Below are positions 9,511-15,952 of a stretch of 64,000 bases of DNA, piece after piece. Both the position numbers and the translations under genes were made by a program. Under the pieces are notes generated by a model. It was not told the DNA's origin. It did no database searches and saw only the letters and a list, made by a program, of their open reading frames with translations. Within the stretch, counting starts at the first letter, position 1. Every line of letters starts with the position of its first letter. This DNA comes from Chloroflexota bacterium (GTDB lineage Bacteria > Chloroflexota > Anaerolineae > Anaerolineales > Villigracilaceae): positions 1-64,000 of the forward strand of contig JACRBN010000005.1 of NCBI GenBank assembly GCA_016213105.1. The letters run 5' to 3'.

Positions 9511-9879
9511 CTAAAATAAGAACGCTGCAATCGCAGAGATCAGTATTAGCAGTATCCCACTCAGCACGCCAAGCAGTACCAGATGCAGCGGACTGTTTTC
9601 GTTAACGATATGATTTATCCGTTGGCTGCTGCTCATTTCACGAAAACTTTCCGCATTGAGCAATTGATATTCATTCCAATCCTGACTTGCAGCATAGCGG
9701 GACGACGTTCCGGCGATGATCAATAAGCATCCAGCCACGAAAAACGCATTGCTATATGCAATCGGCGAATTCCACTCTTTGACATAGCCAATAATGCCGA
9801 TTACGACTCCAATAATCGTGGTGATCGCAAAGGATTTCGCGCACAATTTGGTGATTTCCTTGATGACCGGGCTTTTCAT
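9511..9879 (-). CDS. Small membrane protein of unknown function
   Basis: About 122 residues with two or three hydrophobic segments (near residues 15-35, 45-62 and 100-120) separated by a polar stretch containing RYAASQDWNEYQLLNAE. ATG at 9879 is chosen because AAAGGAG precedes it by about 14 bases; a GTG at 9975 extends the frame but has no ribosome site. It lies just beyond the distal end of the cassette array, on the same strand as the cassettes, but has no attC-like palindrome after it, so it is either chromosomal or a cassette that lost its site. I do not recognise the family. The 254 bases between it and the GT39 gene contain no gene. Confidence 0.6.
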   Translation of the reverse strand: MKSPVIKEITKLCAKSFAITTIIGVVIGIIGYVKEWNSPIAYSNAFFVAGCLLIIAGTSSRYAASQDWNEYQLLNAESFREMSSSQRINHIVNENSPLHLVLLGVLSGILLILISAIAAFLF

Positions 9880-10056
9880 GTAGGCTTTCTTAGCTCCTTT
9901 CGAACGAATTTCAGACAGCTTCAACGAGACTGTCGAAAAACTCCTGGTTCGAAAAAAGTTCAAAAAAACTCCCACAACAGGCTAAAAAACAGCCAAAATA
10001 TTGCCAAAATGTTGTGCGGAACACAAAAAAACAGCTGCTTTTCAGCGTTTCTCTCC

Positions 10057-10085
10057 CACTTTTCAAAAATAATTTTTGAAAAGTG
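10057..10085. repeat. Perfect 13-base inverted repeat at the array end
   Basis: CACTTTTCAAAAA (10057-10069) and TTTTTGAAAAGTG (10073-10085) flank TAA. It could terminate transcription leaving the cassette array, though it is symmetrical. It lies 16 bases beyond the R' core of the last attC site. Confidence 0.6.
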
Positions 10086-10100
10086 ACTTATTCGACAGTT

Positions 10101-10228
10101 TCAACGGTTTGCGTTACCCGCAAGTGGGCGGGCGACGGAACGCCGTCCGACTGGGAAAATGCTGAGGCGTAGAAAAAGGCTTGGAATCGCGCCAGACTCC
10201 CCAGCGTCGGGTGCACGCTTTGTTGGGC
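10101..10228 (-). repeat. attC site 1 (distal end of the array)
   Basis: R'' GCCCAAC lies at 10222-10228 and L'' GCGTGCAC at 10211-10218. L' GTAACGC and a core GTTGA (10105-10101) lie at the other end. The R' core reads GTTGAAA rather than GTTGGGC, as expected where the last cassette meets foreign sequence. The middle is nearly the same as in sites 3 and 6. Confidence 0.78.
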
Positions 10229-10332
10229 AACCTGCCTACCAGAACGATGGCAGAAAAAAGACACCACCGCAAACACGACAAGATTTTACACGCAACTTTG
10301 GTTTTTGACTAAAACCAGAGGAGACCAATTGG

Positions 10333-10695
10333 CTATGGACTAACCCCAAAATAATCTCTAGGACAAAATCCTTCTTCACCAACTTCACTGCCAAAACTTG
10401 GGAGACAAGCAGCAAGAGTTTCACCAATACCCTCAACAGCCCAAAAAGTTCCAATCCCAATCGCGTAGCATGTTAAGTCGTTATACCCATCATTAAAAAC
10501 TACCCACGACTTAAAGACCAATTGAATGGTGCGCTCGTATTTCCAGATTGCATAACCTTTTCTAGTCGCTACCACTTTACGACATTCGCCATATGCAGAA
10601 TATTGATTAGTCTTTACTAATCCAAAAAATATTGTTGTTATGATAATAACTGCAAGAAAAAGTAGTGGTATTTTAATTATCCATTTTCGTGACAT
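10333..10695 (-). CDS. Cassette gene: membrane-anchored protein, 120 residues, unknown
   Basis: The N-terminus KWIIKIPLLFLAVIIITTIFF forms one membrane anchor or signal anchor, followed by about 95 extracytoplasmic residues with four cysteines (GECRKVV, LTCYAIG, LAACLPS, EGFCPRD), which could form disulfides. I do not recognise the family. It is the only gene of the distal cassette; attC site 1 begins about 105 bases after its stop. Ribosome-site sequence is weak (gagataaagtaa before the ATG). The AT-rich composition differs from the chromosomal genes outside the array. Confidence 0.65.
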   Translation of the reverse strand: MSRKWIIKIPLLFLAVIIITTIFFGLVKTNQYSAYGECRKVVATRKGYAIWKYERTIQLVFKSWVVFNDGYNDLTCYAIGIGTFWAVEGIGETLAACLPSFGSEVGEEGFCPRDYFGVSP

Positions 10696-10833
10696 TTACT
10701 TTATCTCATAGTATGGAGTAGTTTAAGTATATGCGTAGAGAGTTTCAATTGGAAAGTCATTTAATTTTTAGAATTCAAAGTTGAGCAAAAGGCAAAGTGT
10801 TTGATTAAAAGGATTTTGGTTTTGCTCTGGGTT

Positions 10834-10961
10834 GCCCAACGGTTTGCGTTATTGGCGGGTGGGACGCGCTGATTCGCTCGACAGGCAGAAAAAACTTGAA
10901 GCGAGAAAAATGCTCGAAAAGCCGCACCGTACCCACCCGTCCAGTGCACGCTTTGTTGGGC
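10834..10961 (-). repeat. attC site 2
   Basis: R'' GCCCAAC (10955-10961) and R' GTTGGGC (10834-10840) on the minus strand are exact inverses, with L'' GCGTGCAC and L' ATAACGC inside. The middle loop diverges from sites 1, 3 and 6, as expected for variable terminal structure. It ends five bases from the stop of the WD40-like gene. Confidence 0.82.
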
Positions 10962-10965
10962 AGTT

Positions 10966-12129
10966 TTATGGAAAGTTCAAATTATTCCATATTGCTACCA
11001 GCCCTGGTCGTTCAGAGCCTCCGCCTGCTGCTAATTGTTTACCATCAGGACTAAACTCTAAGACTTCTGCCGAAAAGCCAGATAACAAATACCAAAACTG
11101 TCCTTTATTTGTATATATGGTTGTGTAACCCCTGTTACCTATTGCAGCATATTTTCCACTTGGGTGATAAGCGATTAATTCTCCACTATATAAACCTAAG
11201 TTTTTTGAACCTATGAAATTGAATAGTTCTGTGGCACTATCAGAATGCACAATATTGACACCCCCACCTATAGGCGTAAATGTATTTCCATCTGGACTAA
11301 AAGAAAAGCCAAAAAAATCTCCTGTAAATGTCTTTGTAAGTTTCCAAGTATTTGTGTCCCATCTCAGAAATTTTGGTTCTTTGGTATTTTCTACGATAGA
11401 GTACCTTGTAAAAAGTAGGTTTTTAGCAGGATTAAAGAACAAGCCTGAAGTCAAAAAATTAGTATCGCTCGTAAATAACACTTTAATTTGATTCCCACTT
11501 GCAAAATCCCATAAAGTTATTTGCTTACCGCTATTCAATATAAATGTCTTTCCATCAGGAGCAAAAATTCCTTCGCCGCGATAAACTATATGAGTATTTC
11601 CCCTAACAATAATAGGGGGTTTTTCAACTTTGATAGTTGAAATTGTTTCACCCGTTTCTAAATTGATAAAACGAACTGATGCACTGTCCCCAATGCCCGC
11701 AGAAATGGCTGCCAGAGTTTTTTTATCGGGACTTACTGTAACAGATGTGACCCACAAATTTACGGGGTGTATAGTTGCTTTTTGGCTTTGTGTATCATAA
11801 TAAACCAGATAGTTTTGTTGGGATGCGATAATTAATGTTTTCCCGTCTCCTGACCAAGCGAGAGAATTCACATGGTCTACAAAACCTTCAAGATAAGTAA
11901 AATATGTCCCTCCTTCCCCTTTGAGACTTACTTTTATTTCGGGATATTCTGCGGTTGGAGTTGCAGTAGGAATTATTGTGGATACAGGTATGACGGTTAA
12001 AGTTGCAAGAGCAGTTGCTGTTGCAATTATCGGTTTATATGTTGTAGGCGTTGACACAGGCATTGATTGGGAAGTAATACACCCTGTAAGTAGGAAGCCT
12101 AGTAGAAACAGTTTGAATGTTAGTCGCAT
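10966..12129 (-). CDS. Cassette gene: WD40-like repeat lipoprotein
   Basis: A 387-residue exported lipoprotein. The N-terminus has a short charged head, a hydrophobic run and the lipobox LLTGC (Cys at about 17), followed by a Pro/Thr/Ala-rich linker (about 20-60). The rest is a beta-propeller with recurring SPDGK-type turns (SGDGKTLIIAS, SPDKKTLAAIS, APDGKTFILNS, SPDGNTFTPIG, SPDGKQLAAGG). Such proteins usually act as surface scaffolds; the partner is unknown. It fills the largest cassette. Its stop lies five bases before attC site 2, a very tight gene/attC fit. The coding bases are much more AT-rich than the chromosomal TolB-like propeller gene at 23217. Confidence 0.8.
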   Translation of the reverse strand: MRLTFKLFLLGFLLTGCITSQSMPVSTPTTYKPIIATATALATLTVIPVSTIIPTATPTAEYPEIKVSLKGEGGTYFTYLEGFVDHVNSLAWSGDGKTLIIASQQNYLVYYDTQSQKATIHPVNLWVTSVTVSPDKKTLAAISAGIGDSASVRFINLETGETISTIKVEKPPIIVRGNTHIVYRGEGIFAPDGKTFILNSGKQITLWDFASGNQIKVLFTSDTNFLTSGLFFNPAKNLLFTRYSIVENTKEPKFLRWDTNTWKLTKTFTGDFFGFSFSPDGNTFTPIGGGVNIVHSDSATELFNFIGSKNLGLYSGELIAYHPSGKYAAIGNRGYTTIYTNKGQFWYLLSGFSAEVLEFSPDGKQLAAGGGSERPGLVAIWNNLNFP

Positions 12130-12180
12130 ATTACATCATTGCCTTTGTTTTTAATAACCGATTATTGATTGCAAAGAACT

Positions 12181-12310
12181 GCCCAGCGGTTTGCGTTACC
12201 TGCGCTGGGGCGGGGACGGCGAAGCCGTCCAGCCAGAAAAATGAAAAGGCGTAGAAAACTGCTTGAGATTTGCGCAGACTCCCCAGCGTCAGGTGCACGC
12301 TTTGTTGGGC
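12181..12310 (-). repeat. attC site 3, with altered R' core
   Basis: R'' GCCCAAC (12304-12310), L'' GCGTGCAC (12294-12301) and L' GTAACGC are intact. The R' core reads GCTGGGC (12187-12181) instead of GTTGGGC, altering the GTT triplet where integrases cut. The middle strongly resembles sites 1 and 6. Confidence 0.78.
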
Positions 12311-12401
12311 GGCTTTTGATTTGAAGACTCTTTGAATAAAAAACGGAAACCATATTACAGACTCTAATCAGTAGAGTGGCTTGGCATTTTTTATTCTTGA
12401 G

Positions 12402-12746
12402 TTAAGTATTGCAGGCTTCTTCAATTAGTTGCTTAATCTCTAGTTGTTTCAATTCTTCTAGAGTTTTAATATTAATATGTCGCATTTCTTTTCCCGTCCC
12501 CTTTAGAATTTTACTTGGATCTTTAAGTGATGCACCTTTTTCGAAACCTAATGTGACGTGGTTTTTCGTTATATTGAGGTAACAAAAAAGTCTACCGTTG
12601 TTCGAATAGCATGGGCGACTCCATTTAATTTCCTCTACAACCTTATTGCTTTGAGACATTATTATTCTTCTGAGTGTATCAAGAATTACCTTTTTATCAT
12701 CTGGAGCCGAATCAAACCATTCTTGAACATTGTTACTTGTCACCAT
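12402..12746 (-). CDS. Cassette gene: DUF1801-domain protein
   Basis: A 114-residue single-domain DUF1801 protein. VQEWFDSAPDDKKVILDTLR near the N-terminus, VEEIKWSRPCYSNNGRLFCY and HVTLGFEKG match the family pattern (helical start, W-x-x-P-x-Y-like core, then a beta strand with GF). Function is unknown. The start at 12746 is supported by AAAGGAGA upstream; a longer frame to 12791 begins inside attC site 4 and is less likely. It is the sole gene of its cassette, followed by attC site 3 about 90 bases downstream. DUF1801 proteins recur as cassette cargo in my general knowledge of integrons, but this cannot be checked here. Confidence 0.82.
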   Translation of the reverse strand: MVTSNNVQEWFDSAPDDKKVILDTLRRIIMSQSNKVVEEIKWSRPCYSNNGRLFCYLNITKNHVTLGFEKGASLKDPSKILKGTGKEMRHINIKTLEELKQLEIKQLIEEACNT

Positions 12747-12782
12747 ATGGGTCTCCTTTATATTTGCATTACGCGACCTGCC

Positions 12783-12910
12783 GCCCAACATTCGGCTTCA
12801 GCGGCAGCGGCGGGGCGGGCGGCGGAAGAAAGCCAACTAGAGAGATTGCTGGCGAAGCATGCATCCCCTGAGCGGCGGGAGCCGCTGTCCGCTGCAAGCC
12901 GGGGTTAGGC
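12783..12910 (-). repeat. attC site 4, divergent type
   Basis: R'' GCCTAAC (12904-12910) and R' GTTGGGC (12783-12789) on the minus strand frame a palindrome with arms such as CAGCGG..CCGCTG. L''/L' and the loop share no close similarity with sites 1, 3 and 6, so the cassette has a different origin. Confidence 0.72.
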
Positions 12911-13026
12911 AGGTTCTGGTAAGAAGACGATTCGGTATTGGTATGCAATTCATCGGTGGGCGGCCAATCTTGAGTAGTTTGAGCCAAACTGCCAAGGAGC
13001 AACAAAGCGGATCATCATCTTGCTCA

Positions 13027-13725
13027 TTACTCCCTCCAATACACCCTAAACTTCCACCGTATGGTTGTTTTGCTTTCTCGCTTCAAATACTCAATCACTT
13101 TCTTTCCAAAAATAAATCCGTATGTGCTCACAATATGCTCGACTGTCCCATATGCCTGGTTCGAGAAGATATCCTGAAACGCAAATTGGAACTCTTCGAT
13201 GAAAATATGGTCCACCTCGTCATCTACCTTCTCTACACCCTCGATTACGTCATACAGATCACCCCCATACCAACCAGGTGAGATGCCTATATAGATCAGC
13301 GAACCCTTCGCCACGCGCAGACCTTCACGGATAAAATCGCGGTACTGTTTTGGTGGATACAGCGCTAATGTAATGCCAGTGACCAGATCCACTGAGTTGT
13401 CCGCTAGAGGTAGTGTGAGGGCATCGCCACTCAGAAAGGTGACCCGACGTACCCCATCTCCTTGCACCTTTTCCTGTGCTTGTCGCAGCATGGCTGCCTC
13501 GCGCTCAATGCCAATCACCTTCCCCGCATACTGTGCCAGCGCAAGGCTTGAGCTGCCTGTTCCCGCCCCCACATCTGCGATAGACTTGCCGCGCAGGTCG
13601 ATTATGCCTGACAGTTGCTCGTAGACTGTCGGGTGATAGGGCGTGTTCGAAAACGCTTCGTACACTTCCGGGTAATCGCGGTAAAGAATATCCCAACGGT
13701 TCTCAATGGACTCAGGTCGTGACAT
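13027..13725 (-). CDS. Cassette gene: class I SAM-dependent methyltransferase
   Basis: A 232-residue methyltransferase. Motif I is IADVGAGTGSSSLALAQYAG (about residues 50-70), the acidic end of strand 2 is VIGIERE, and the later ALTLPLADNSVDLVTGI is the usual post-motif region of class I enzymes. The substrate is not apparent. AAGGATGAG lies just before the ATG. It occupies its own cassette; attC site 4 lies about 115 bases downstream. The protein is distinct from the two chromosomal methyltransferases at 17072 and 17942. Confidence 0.82.
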   Translation of the reverse strand: MSRPESIENRWDILYRDYPEVYEAFSNTPYHPTVYEQLSGIIDLRGKSIADVGAGTGSSSLALAQYAGKVIGIEREAAMLRQAQEKVQGDGVRRVTFLSGDALTLPLADNSVDLVTGITLALYPPKQYRDFIREGLRVAKGSLIYIGISPGWYGGDLYDVIEGVEKVDDEVDHIFIEEFQFAFQDIFSNQAYGTVEHIVSTYGFIFGKKVIEYLKRESKTTIRWKFRVYWRE

Positions 13726-13766
13726 AACTCATCCTTGGGTAATAATCGAATACCTCTTGGCTAGCT

Positions 13767-13901
13767 GCCTAACGGCAGGCGTTACCGGCAATGGCGGGAC
13801 TTGGCGGACAAACCCACCAGACGCCGAATCCGCCGTTTGGGGCCGCTTCCCTGAAAGTGCGGCCGACGGCCCGCACTTGTCCGGTGCACGCGGTGTTAGC
13901 C
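13767..13901 (-). repeat. attC site 5, divergent type
   Basis: On the minus strand the site runs from GGCTAAC (13895-13901) through CGTGCACC to GGTAACGC and GTTAGGC (13767-13773). A long internal arm (GGCCGTCGGCCGCAC and its partner) gives a larger variable structure than in other sites. The R'' core is GGCTAAC rather than the consensus RYYYAAC. Confidence 0.7.
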
Positions 13902-13932
13902 AGCGGATCGATAAACTACACTTCGCAAATTA

Positions 13933-14613
13933 CTAAATATATTCAACACGCCCATCTTTCTCCAGTTGTAAGAAATCTTTCAACCTGTCGATCGTTCCGT
14001 AGGTCATGGAATTAGTGATCTTCATGTTTAGTGTATCTACGTTTCTGGATAAGACATACACGGTTTTCATATTTTCTATTTTTTCAGGTGACGTTCCCGC
14101 CAGGACATCATTATCACCTGAAGCAGCCACTATTTCACCCAACACAAGCACGCCAGCGTCATCTTGTCCACGGCGATGAGTCTCCTTGTACCAGCACAAC
14201 CTGCACTCAAAATGAGTCTTGCATTCTTCTATGCGCGGCACTTTCACTGCGATGGATGGAATAGCGGTCAACCCAGAAGCAGCAATCTCATCTACTCCGC
14301 GGGGATAATGCTCGACGGTTCTCATGGCTTGGGAAACTTGGTCTTCAGAAGGGATGTTTATAACGAACTCTTTGGTGGTGATGATGTTTTGTATCGTGTG
14401 ATGAGATGCCCAATCGTAAAAGACAAAGAACTGGGCGAACTTATCTCCAAAGGGCAATCCCCAAGTATTTGGCTGAGCATTAGGTATGCCGTGCTCATCA
14501 ACCGTAGTGATAATGTATAGAGGGCATGGAATTAGGATGTTGCTATGAAACCAGCCAACAAAATCGGGAAACCCAATTTCTTCGGGGGGAGTGAGAGGAA
14601 TATCAACTTTCAT
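13933..14613 (-). CDS. Cassette gene: flavin reductase-like (FMN-binding split barrel)
   Basis: A 226-residue protein of the flavin reductase-like/DIM6-NTAB family. Visible features are CPLYIITTVDEHGIPNAQPN near residue 30, the FMN-contacting strands around FVFYDWASHHTIQNI and KEFVINIPSE, and a middle loop with ECKTHFECRLCWYKE. These split-barrel proteins bind FMN and reduce flavins, or act on aromatic or quinone substrates; the true substrate is unknown. ATG at 14613 is chosen (a TTG precedes it directly), with AGGAGT eight bases upstream. attC site 5 begins 32 bases after the stop. Confidence 0.82.
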   Translation of the reverse strand: MKVDIPLTPPEEIGFPDFVGWFHSNILIPCPLYIITTVDEHGIPNAQPNTWGLPFGDKFAQFFVFYDWASHHTIQNIITTKEFVINIPSEDQVSQAMRTVEHYPRGVDEIAASGLTAIPSIAVKVPRIEECKTHFECRLCWYKETHRRGQDDAGVLVLGEIVAASGDNDVLAGTSPEKIENMKTVYVLSRNVDTLNMKITNSMTYGTIDRLKDFLQLEKDGRVEYI

Positions 14614-14681
14614 CAACAGTTACTCCTATTCTGATAGAGTTGTCATAGCTGCTACCGTCTGGTGAAAACTTCGATATCGCT

Positions 14682-14811
14682 GGCTAACGGTTTGCGTTAC
14701 CCGCGCTGGGGCGGGCGGCGGAACGCTGTCCGACTGGAAAAATGCTGAGGCGTAGAAAAATGCTTGGAATCGCGCCAGAATCCCCAACGTCGGGTGCACG
14801 CTTTGTTAGCC
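14682..14811 (-). repeat. attC site 6
   Basis: Minus-strand order: GGCTAAC (14805-14811), AAA, GCGTGCAC, a middle closely similar to sites 1 and 3, GTAACGC, AAACC and GTTAGCC (14682-14688). The core uses TAGC rather than TGGG, so its R' and R'' pair with each other exactly. Confidence 0.8.
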
Positions 14812-14818
14812 TGCGGTT

Positions 14819-15493
14819 TTATGGGGTAAAAGGGTCGAATAGCTCACCAGTTTTTGCGCTTAGATAATAGGATTTGAAACTATCCTTTTCAGGGCAACTT
14901 AAGATGGTAAGCTCCCAAGCAGGATATTCTGTATGGACTTTGTTCAAGGATAATTCGATACTCGCTTTGGGCGAATTAAAACATAAACTGACTTCTTGGT
15001 CTTTGGCAAAAATATCTAGAGCGTCTTGACTATCTATAGACCATTCTCCTTGATAGATCGGTTTTTCTGCTGAACTGCCAATACTTACCGTAATTTCGTC
15101 TGACTGCGGCTCTGTTGTTTGCCCAGGCATCATATCGATTGGACGATTCACTACCTTTCCAGAATTAGTAACTCCAACGAAGAGCATTTCATCACTTGGC
15201 ACATGCGAAGAATGAAATTCAGCACCTATTTTAAATGCAGATGAGTCTATTATCTCTCTGGTGAGATAAAAACTTACGTTTGTAAGATATGCATCATCTT
15301 GCCAATCACGAGCACTGTTTTCCAATAATGTCCAGGTTTCTTTGAGTGAAACAACTTGTCGAACATTGTTTTTTTCGGGCTTGAAGAATACCCAACCTGC
15401 ACCTAAAAGAACCATCAAGCATACTAAAACAACAAGCGTAGTTCTTTTTTGTTGCTTGACGTGAAGTCCATTTGCTATTTTCTTATGTTTCAT
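14819..15493 (-). CDS. Cassette gene: single-pass membrane protein, possible PepSY-like end
   Basis: A 224-residue protein with a basic head (MKHKKIANGLHVKQQKR), one transmembrane anchor (TTLVVLVCLMVLLGAGWVFF, about 18-37) and about 185 extracytoplasmic residues. The C-terminus, with PAWELTILSCPEKD and YYLSAKTGELFDPF, resembles the end of PepSY-type domains (W-x-hydrophobic strand, then A-x-T-G-x). This match is by eye and weak. No ribosome site is clear. It is the first cassette counted from the start of the array. attC site 6 begins seven bases after the stop. Confidence 0.65.
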   Translation of the reverse strand: MKHKKIANGLHVKQQKRTTLVVLVCLMVLLGAGWVFFKPEKNNVRQVVSLKETWTLLENSARDWQDDAYLTNVSFYLTREIIDSSAFKIGAEFHSSHVPSDEMLFVGVTNSGKVVNRPIDMMPGQTTEPQSDEITVSIGSSAEKPIYQGEWSIDSQDALDIFAKDQEVSLCFNSPKASIELSLNKVHTEYPAWELTILSCPEKDSFKSYYLSAKTGELFDPFTP

Positions 15494-15532
15494 TTTTTAT
15501 TTGCGCCTATGAGGGGTGTATTGTTTGTAGCA

Positions 15533-15539
15533 GGCTAAC
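15533..15539 (-). promoter_or_regulatory. Lone integron core site at the array start (attI-like boundary)
   Basis: GTTAGCC on the minus strand, just upstream of the first cassette gene, matches the R' cores of the array, but no attC palindrome extends beyond it. It is the expected look of a cassette/attI junction. No integrase or known attI is recognisable upstream. Confidence 0.5.
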
Positions 15540-15952
15540 AACGGATGGGCTGCGGCGAATATAATTCCTTTTGGACTTTACAAAAACCCGCAATCTAACC
15601 CCCCAAATTAATGTAGGAATTAGGCTGCAAGCGCTGGTACAATTTACCCATACCGATAGTATAGCATCTCGTTTTCTTGTTGGAAAGGGAATCCGACACA
15701 GGGCAATCGCATCATGGACAAATGTTCCAAAACATCTGCGCTTTTCAACCCGTTGAAGCGCATTTTTGGCAAAAACGTTCTTGTGTGGAGTAAAGACACT
15801 CCCCTGCTGGATTGAAAGTCGATTTTGAACGTTCATTTTTTACCTCTGAGCCGCGTTTCCTGCTGTTACCAATTTTGATGTGATTACCCTGACATCCCCG
15901 CGTGAAAAAGCATCTCCTTCGTCGTCTTCGACGAGATCGGAATTCGTACCCC
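15540..15952. other. Gene-poor flank of the cassette array
   Basis: These 413 bases contain no convincing gene. A minus-strand frame of 109 codons (15507-15836) has no ribosome site and no recognisable domain. No complete palindrome of the attC kind is present. If an integrase once adjoined the array it should have been here. Confidence 0.5.

Follow-up and report, generated by a model that had tools for sequence, protein, structure and literature searches.

Probable Chromosomal Integron without Integrase in a Chloroflexota Bacterium and IS1182-Type Elements in attC Sites

Known Integrase-Less Arrays and attC-Associated Elements

A CALIN is a group of two or more attC sites, less than 4 kb from one another, that lacks an integrase gene (intI). 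Three origins of such clusters are listed: insertion off target, intI loss, and rearrangement (PMC8618304). For Chloroflexota, integrons have been listed before (PMC8618304, PMC9668308). Insertion sequences targeting one end of attC are represented by the IS1111-attC elements ISKpn4 and ISPst6 (Tetu and Holmes 2008, Post and Hall 2009, as cited in PMC11187229), which possess a DEDD transposase, a guide RNA and sub-terminal inverted repeats (PMC11187229). MITE-like structures tied to an integron are known from a MITE-flanked class 1 integron (Gillings 2009, as cited in PMC8618304).

The locus considered here lies in the first 64,000 nucleotides of contig JACRBN010000005.1 (assembly GCA_016213105.1); this whole stretch is referred to as the window. 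The first-pass annotation, made from the letters alone, proposed a Chloroflexota-like host, and this is confirmed: the genome belongs to Chloroflexota and is of the Anaerolineae type, and its same-genus relative is a Chloroflexi MAG. The statement that integrons of this phylum are little described was too broad, since they are already listed and 31 of 61 related genomes contain an intI hit above the family cut-off, which makes integrons common in this little-studied group.

The array shares with CALIN the presence of same-direction attC sites behind single genes (six sites within 4.7 kb) with no intI nearby, and the earlier assignment to this class is formally correct. However, it differs from a plain off-target CALIN by a promoter-attI block homologous to intI-linked ones, by its Chloroflexota host and by a last attC broken by a MITE. 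Because a recognisable promoter-attI region is kept, the array is better named an integron that lost intI. The elements found in attC sites resemble the IS1111-attC group in apparently targeting one end of attC, but instead of a DEDD transposase and sub-terminal inverted repeats they have a DDE transposase of the IS1182 type, true terminal inverted repeats (TIRs), a GTT at each flank and MITE derivatives. In the class 1 integron the MITEs are flanking, whereas here a MITE lies inside the R' box of attC at G/TT.

Cassettes and attC Sites of the Array

The array is composed of six cassettes:

14688-15538, minus strand: cassette 1, 224 aa membrane-anchored protein with no Pfam match; attC 14682-14811
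13773-14687, minus strand: cassette 2, flavin reductase-like protein (PF01613); attC 13767-13901
12789-13772, minus strand: cassette 3, methyltransferase; attC 12783-12910
12187-12788, minus strand: cassette 4, DUF1801 protein; attC 12181-12310
10840-12186, minus strand: cassette 5, WD40-like lipoprotein of 387 aa; attC 10834-10961
10105-10839, minus strand: cassette 6, 120 aa protein with no Pfam match; attC 10103-10228, broken inside R'
9511-9890, minus strand: membrane protein gene past the MITE, about 123 aa from ATG; flanking chromosome

The last gene is taken as flanking chromosome since no attC follows it. The 5' boundary of the array at 15538/15539 agrees with that drawn earlier; related features reach 9923 and 15690, and a second MITE then extends to 15891. 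The 3' end, which lay beyond the view of the first-pass annotation, is formed by a MITE that sits within attC. The cargo is unrelated and AT-richer than its surroundings, as had been noticed (GC 0.34-0.51 versus mostly 0.53-0.65 in the window outside the array). From the gene end to attC there are 7, 31, 116, 91, 4 and 104 bases in cassettes 1-6, respectively; the two genes described as ending 5-7 bases from their sites thus have gaps of 4 and 7.

All six attC sites are in minus-strand orientation, each behind one minus-strand gene, and measure 128-135 nt (about 130 bases in the earlier description). They span 10099-14811, the last one occupying 10099-10228 when its R' box is counted. Simple sites R''/R' of the form RYYYAAC/GTTRRRY bound an imperfect palindrome, as in attC. 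The claim of exact or near-exact cores holds for the fit to these motifs, except at two places: 12181-12187 reads GCTGGGC (one T to C in R'), and 10099-10105, the R' box of the last attC, where a 177-bp MITE starts, reads GTTGAAA. L'' carries the extra base relative to L' that had been pointed out (GCGTGCAC versus GTAACGC). Folding energy of the single sites as ssDNA hairpins gives z from +0.9 to -3.0, which alone is weak and non-discriminating evidence. No Rfam family matches the array or the 177-bp MITE.

The six window sites that serve as array evidence were also the source of a covariance model, which detected 43 sites in the genome, 42 of them with E<0.001, and 36 beyond the six of the window. 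Ten consecutive same-strand sites found by this model adjoin intI on contig C28. At 51 other intI loci searched with it, each of the 45 attC matches lies on the strand that does not encode intI.

Because cleavage of integron cassettes falls between G and TT, a cassette should carry at its 5' end an R box that pairs with its own R'' and not with the adjoining one. Own-cassette pairing is observed at 41 of 42 positions in the window array and at 70 of 70 in that on C28 (111/112 jointly), versus 36/42 and 59/70 when pairing is counted within the site as it lies. The R box pairs perfectly with its own R'' in five of the six window cassettes and in all ten of the array beside intI, as expected from the sequence for cassettes that could be excised as circles. 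This pairing, together with the covariance matches beside intI, bears out the attC/cassette layout recognised initially.

Putative Promoter-attI Block, and the Integrase Gene on C28

The 5' end of the array is occupied by two features:

15540-15690, minus strand: Pc-attI region with an extended -10 promoter, a hairpin leader and the attI end CCGCAGCCCATCCGTTG followed by TT
15699-15891, strand unassigned: second MITE, unrelated to the 177-bp one, with TIRs CAGGGTAATCACATC / GATGCGATTGCCCTG; repeat copies at C2:318.6 kb and C4:10.7 kb

The promoter (15686-15658, TTTCCA-17-TATACT with TG before the -10 box) points into the array, and its conserved extended -10 is TGCTATACT. A second copy of the block 15540-15690, 95% identical and likewise without intI, lies on contig C2 of the same genome (about 318.6 kb) and heads another cassette at C2:317.7 kb. 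Identity of the window block to regions upstream of intI in other Anaerolineae integrons is 83% (L044) and 75% (L066/G008:C98), and the hairpin core is also found just upstream of intI at five further loci. Promoter and attI are recognised at the array 5' end by homology to intI-linked regions only, and on this sequence basis we infer that the block carries attI. It is unrelated to the attI of the intI on C28. The second MITE adjoins the block at the position expected for intI.

Two side observations concern this region. The hairpin GCAGCCTAATTCC...GGGGGGTTAGATTGC (window 15580-15645) is conserved between promoter and attI in Anaerolineae integrons, and the same attI-leader hairpin is present in the intI-upstream regions of L042, L044, L049, L050, L051, L056 and L066. 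The copy of the second MITE at C4:10.7 kb (L103) has a seeming 10-bp duplication, GGTGGAGCGG, on both sides.

A tblastn search with three IntI proteins revealed no intI at or near the window array, its matches in the window being limited to two distant recombinases of the Xer type, at 47.6 and 54.3 kb; an intI adjacent to attI and the array is thus missing at this locus. The segment 46975-54690 of the window contains tRNA-Met, then these tyrosine recombinase genes, in a lower-GC stretch, which is possibly an integrated element. The earlier description 'without an integrase' is accurate for the locus and inaccurate for the genome, where the search for intI proposed with it finds one gene, on contig C28, the nearest one detected to the window array (about 418.7-418.9 bits, TIGR02249 cut-off 265).

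The C28 IntI passes the family model including the IntI-specific region and aligns across VchIntIA (2a3v). Its gene is divergent from an array of at least 10 cassettes running to the contig end. Apart from an insertion, the protein is 91% identical in alignment to IntI of the same-genus relative. The catalytic residues R, H, R, H and Y are all retained, and yet the catalytic domain is not intact: 31 residues replace HLLQN directly after HTFRHSFAT (catalytic HxxR), and they are absent from 24 of 24 aligned relatives. In AlphaFold models, helix 276-289 of the control is shortened to 276-283 in the C28 IntI, with residues 286-348 at pLDDT <50; the control, for which that alignment was used with the same-genus IntI as its first sequence, retains the helix, its own C-terminus being only moderately confident. 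The C28 IntI is probably impaired by the insertion, a prediction based on one modest comparison of models. With 28 contigs, a completeness of 97.6% and several arrays that stop at contig ends, the assembly could be missing another intI. The 31 residues are encoded by a palindromic in-frame insertion, CCTCCCCCAAATTCGA...TCGAATTTGGGGGAGG (L008:8650-8745); it was rejected as a common genomic repeat, the genome containing only one exact copy.

Origin of the Array

The joint explanation, a chromosomal integron without integrase consisting of a promoter, attI, six cassettes and a last attC split by a MITE with the ends of IS1182-type elements, is held with high confidence. At a time when an active integrase was available, excised cassette circles would have entered at the window attI. 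Subsequently intI would have been lost from the locus, where the second MITE now stands beside the attI block. Cassette movement could now proceed only via an integrase acting in trans, and the sole detected intI is probably damaged.

A different reading of the sites themselves, as dispersed palindromic repeats of REP or MITE type, can draw on the recurrence of imperfect palindromes across the genome. These palindromes, however, form strictly one-direction arrays beside intI and obey the G/TT boundary logic, and the own-cassette R-box pairing test rules this reading out, leaving it a negligible probability. The first-pass annotation supposed that the cassettes were captured by an integrase encoded elsewhere. 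In its strict form, this means that such an integrase put them into a non-attI attG site (5'-GWT-3') and that attI was never present. An intI in trans, many scattered arrays in the genome and a 3' flank past the last GTT (GTTGAAGC) that deviates from GTTRRRY, as at attG, are all in line with this. Against it, the stretch of 150 bp preceding the first cassette shares homology with the region between intI and attI in intact integrons and includes a conserved promoter, neither of which a random attG would have. Off-site capture is quite unlikely. Since the array starts at its own promoter-attI and the C28 attI is different, the loss of intI is a better explanation than capture by the integrase of C28. 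The empty site is not readable: in the one relative compared, a same-genus genome, both flanks are on one contig and rearranged.

The 177-bp MITE and IS1182-Type Elements

The last attC (attC1) is interrupted by one further feature:

9926-10102, minus strand: 177-bp MITE with TIRs GAAACTGTCGAATAA / TTTTTCGACAGTCTC, inside R' of attC1

The MITE splits the R' box after GTT, so that GTT flanks it at 10103-10105 and 9923-9925. Only four of seven R''/R' pairs are left in attC1, which would make it a weaker recombination site. Further copies of this MITE in the same genome adjoin attC sites likewise. It was found in 13 of 301 genomes of the order, a lower bound because two candidates were scored per genome, and also in other Anaerolineae; none was found in a plasmid collection.

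The same ends, together with an IS1182-type transposase, are present in a full-length relative in genome G009. In six species-level genomes, every copy of such elements with both ends readable is in attC, at the same point and in the same orientation. Among more than 30 left ends of MITE and IS copies, nearly every readable one follows the left half of an attC, which ends in CGTT. On the right, the flanks of the MITE copies start with GTT and mostly fit GTTRRRY, the orientation being constant. Exceptions to the junction pattern are L137, L140 and L142; a few MITE copies (e.g., L137) have GTT flanks with no recognisable attC on the left. A class-wide search of 396 genomes found the exact 17-base end in 7 genomes, with 13 matches in total; 12 are left ends, one is a right end, and all 13 are at attC junctions.

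The elements are about 1.7 kb long, TIRs flank the transposase gene, and the protein gives a hit of about 262 bits to the IS1182 model NF033551; in these respects they resemble the IS1182 family. The protein also matches the Pfam families DDE_Tnp_1_6 and DUF772. The elements differ from the IS1182 family in that nearly every copy read is in an attC R' box and in the score being just below the NCBI cut-off of 270, which points to a divergent branch of IS1182. Only C-terminal transposase remnants, beside the same TIR, are present in the window's own genome, so the window MITE has no visible helper now. Remnants of full-length IS1182-type elements were noted at L108:9648-9662, L109:7286-7300 and L110:3356-3370, ending in ...GACAGTCTC followed by GTT at a cassette boundary; a C-terminal transposase fragment is kept at L108 and L109.

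Distant IS1182 relatives were found in Pseudoalteromonas (33% protein identity) and Catenovulum (42%, over part of the protein). At these two loci (L178:1240-1380 and L179 near 3826) the elements seem to start after an attC-like ...GGCGTT. The relatives suggest that the attC habit extends beyond Chloroflexota.

In the proposed mechanism, the IS1182-type transposase would recognise attC, by its sequence or as a folded hairpin, insert next to GTT and duplicate these three bases; insertion of the MITE in attC1 would weaken it as a recombination site. The flanking GTT could be either such a duplication or the result of an integrase G/TT crossover. We regard it as rather probable that this DDE branch of IS1182 and its MITEs use attC as a normal oriented landing site at G/TT in Chloroflexota (on thinner evidence, in marine Gammaproteobacteria), independently of IS1111-attC, and thereby disable single attC sites.

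The ambiguity of GTT gives some ground to the integron integrase itself as the agent: a circle of the MITE or of an IS1182-type element with a G/TT junction would recombine with attC like a cassette, giving the same insertion exactly at the integrase crossover, in one orientation and with GTT on both sides. The element, however, has no attC of its own, a DDE transposase gene and transposon-like terminal inverted repeats are present in its full-length relatives, and the distant Pseudoalteromonas relatives, with divergent TIRs, are also GTT-flanked at attC, which makes integrase capture unlikely. Very improbable is a MITE that forms a functional part of the cassette, such as a shared 5' leader or promoter. 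It does always precede the cassette start in gene orientation, and its RNA folding is strong (z -5.7), but there is no covariation inside it and no promoter match, and full-length IS copies occupy the same position. Moreover, in L105 and L109 the cassette past the MITE has its matching R box on the other side of the element (7/7 pairs in both, versus 4 and 3 for the box to the left of the MITE), which marks the element as an insertion and no part of the cassette. A conserved structured RNA and a promoter carrier were rejected as candidates for the MITE, the former for lack of covariation and the latter for lack of a promoter match.

No report of IS1182-type elements or such MITEs in attC was found in the open-access literature, which does not in itself prove novelty.

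Significance for Integron Biology

It is usually hard to choose between the models for the origin of intI-less clusters. Here, a single genome shows one route, with attI and the promoter kept and intI gone, in a group where integrons look common. To the specialist, the attC-directed IS1182/MITE group is the new part, adding a different kind of transposon to the parasites of integrons. If this reading is true, the folded integron site has become, by convergence, the target of two unrelated types of transposase. The elements would then provide a natural system in which to study the orientation-specific recognition of a palindrome by a DDE transposase, and to ask whether such insertions freeze cassettes in place.
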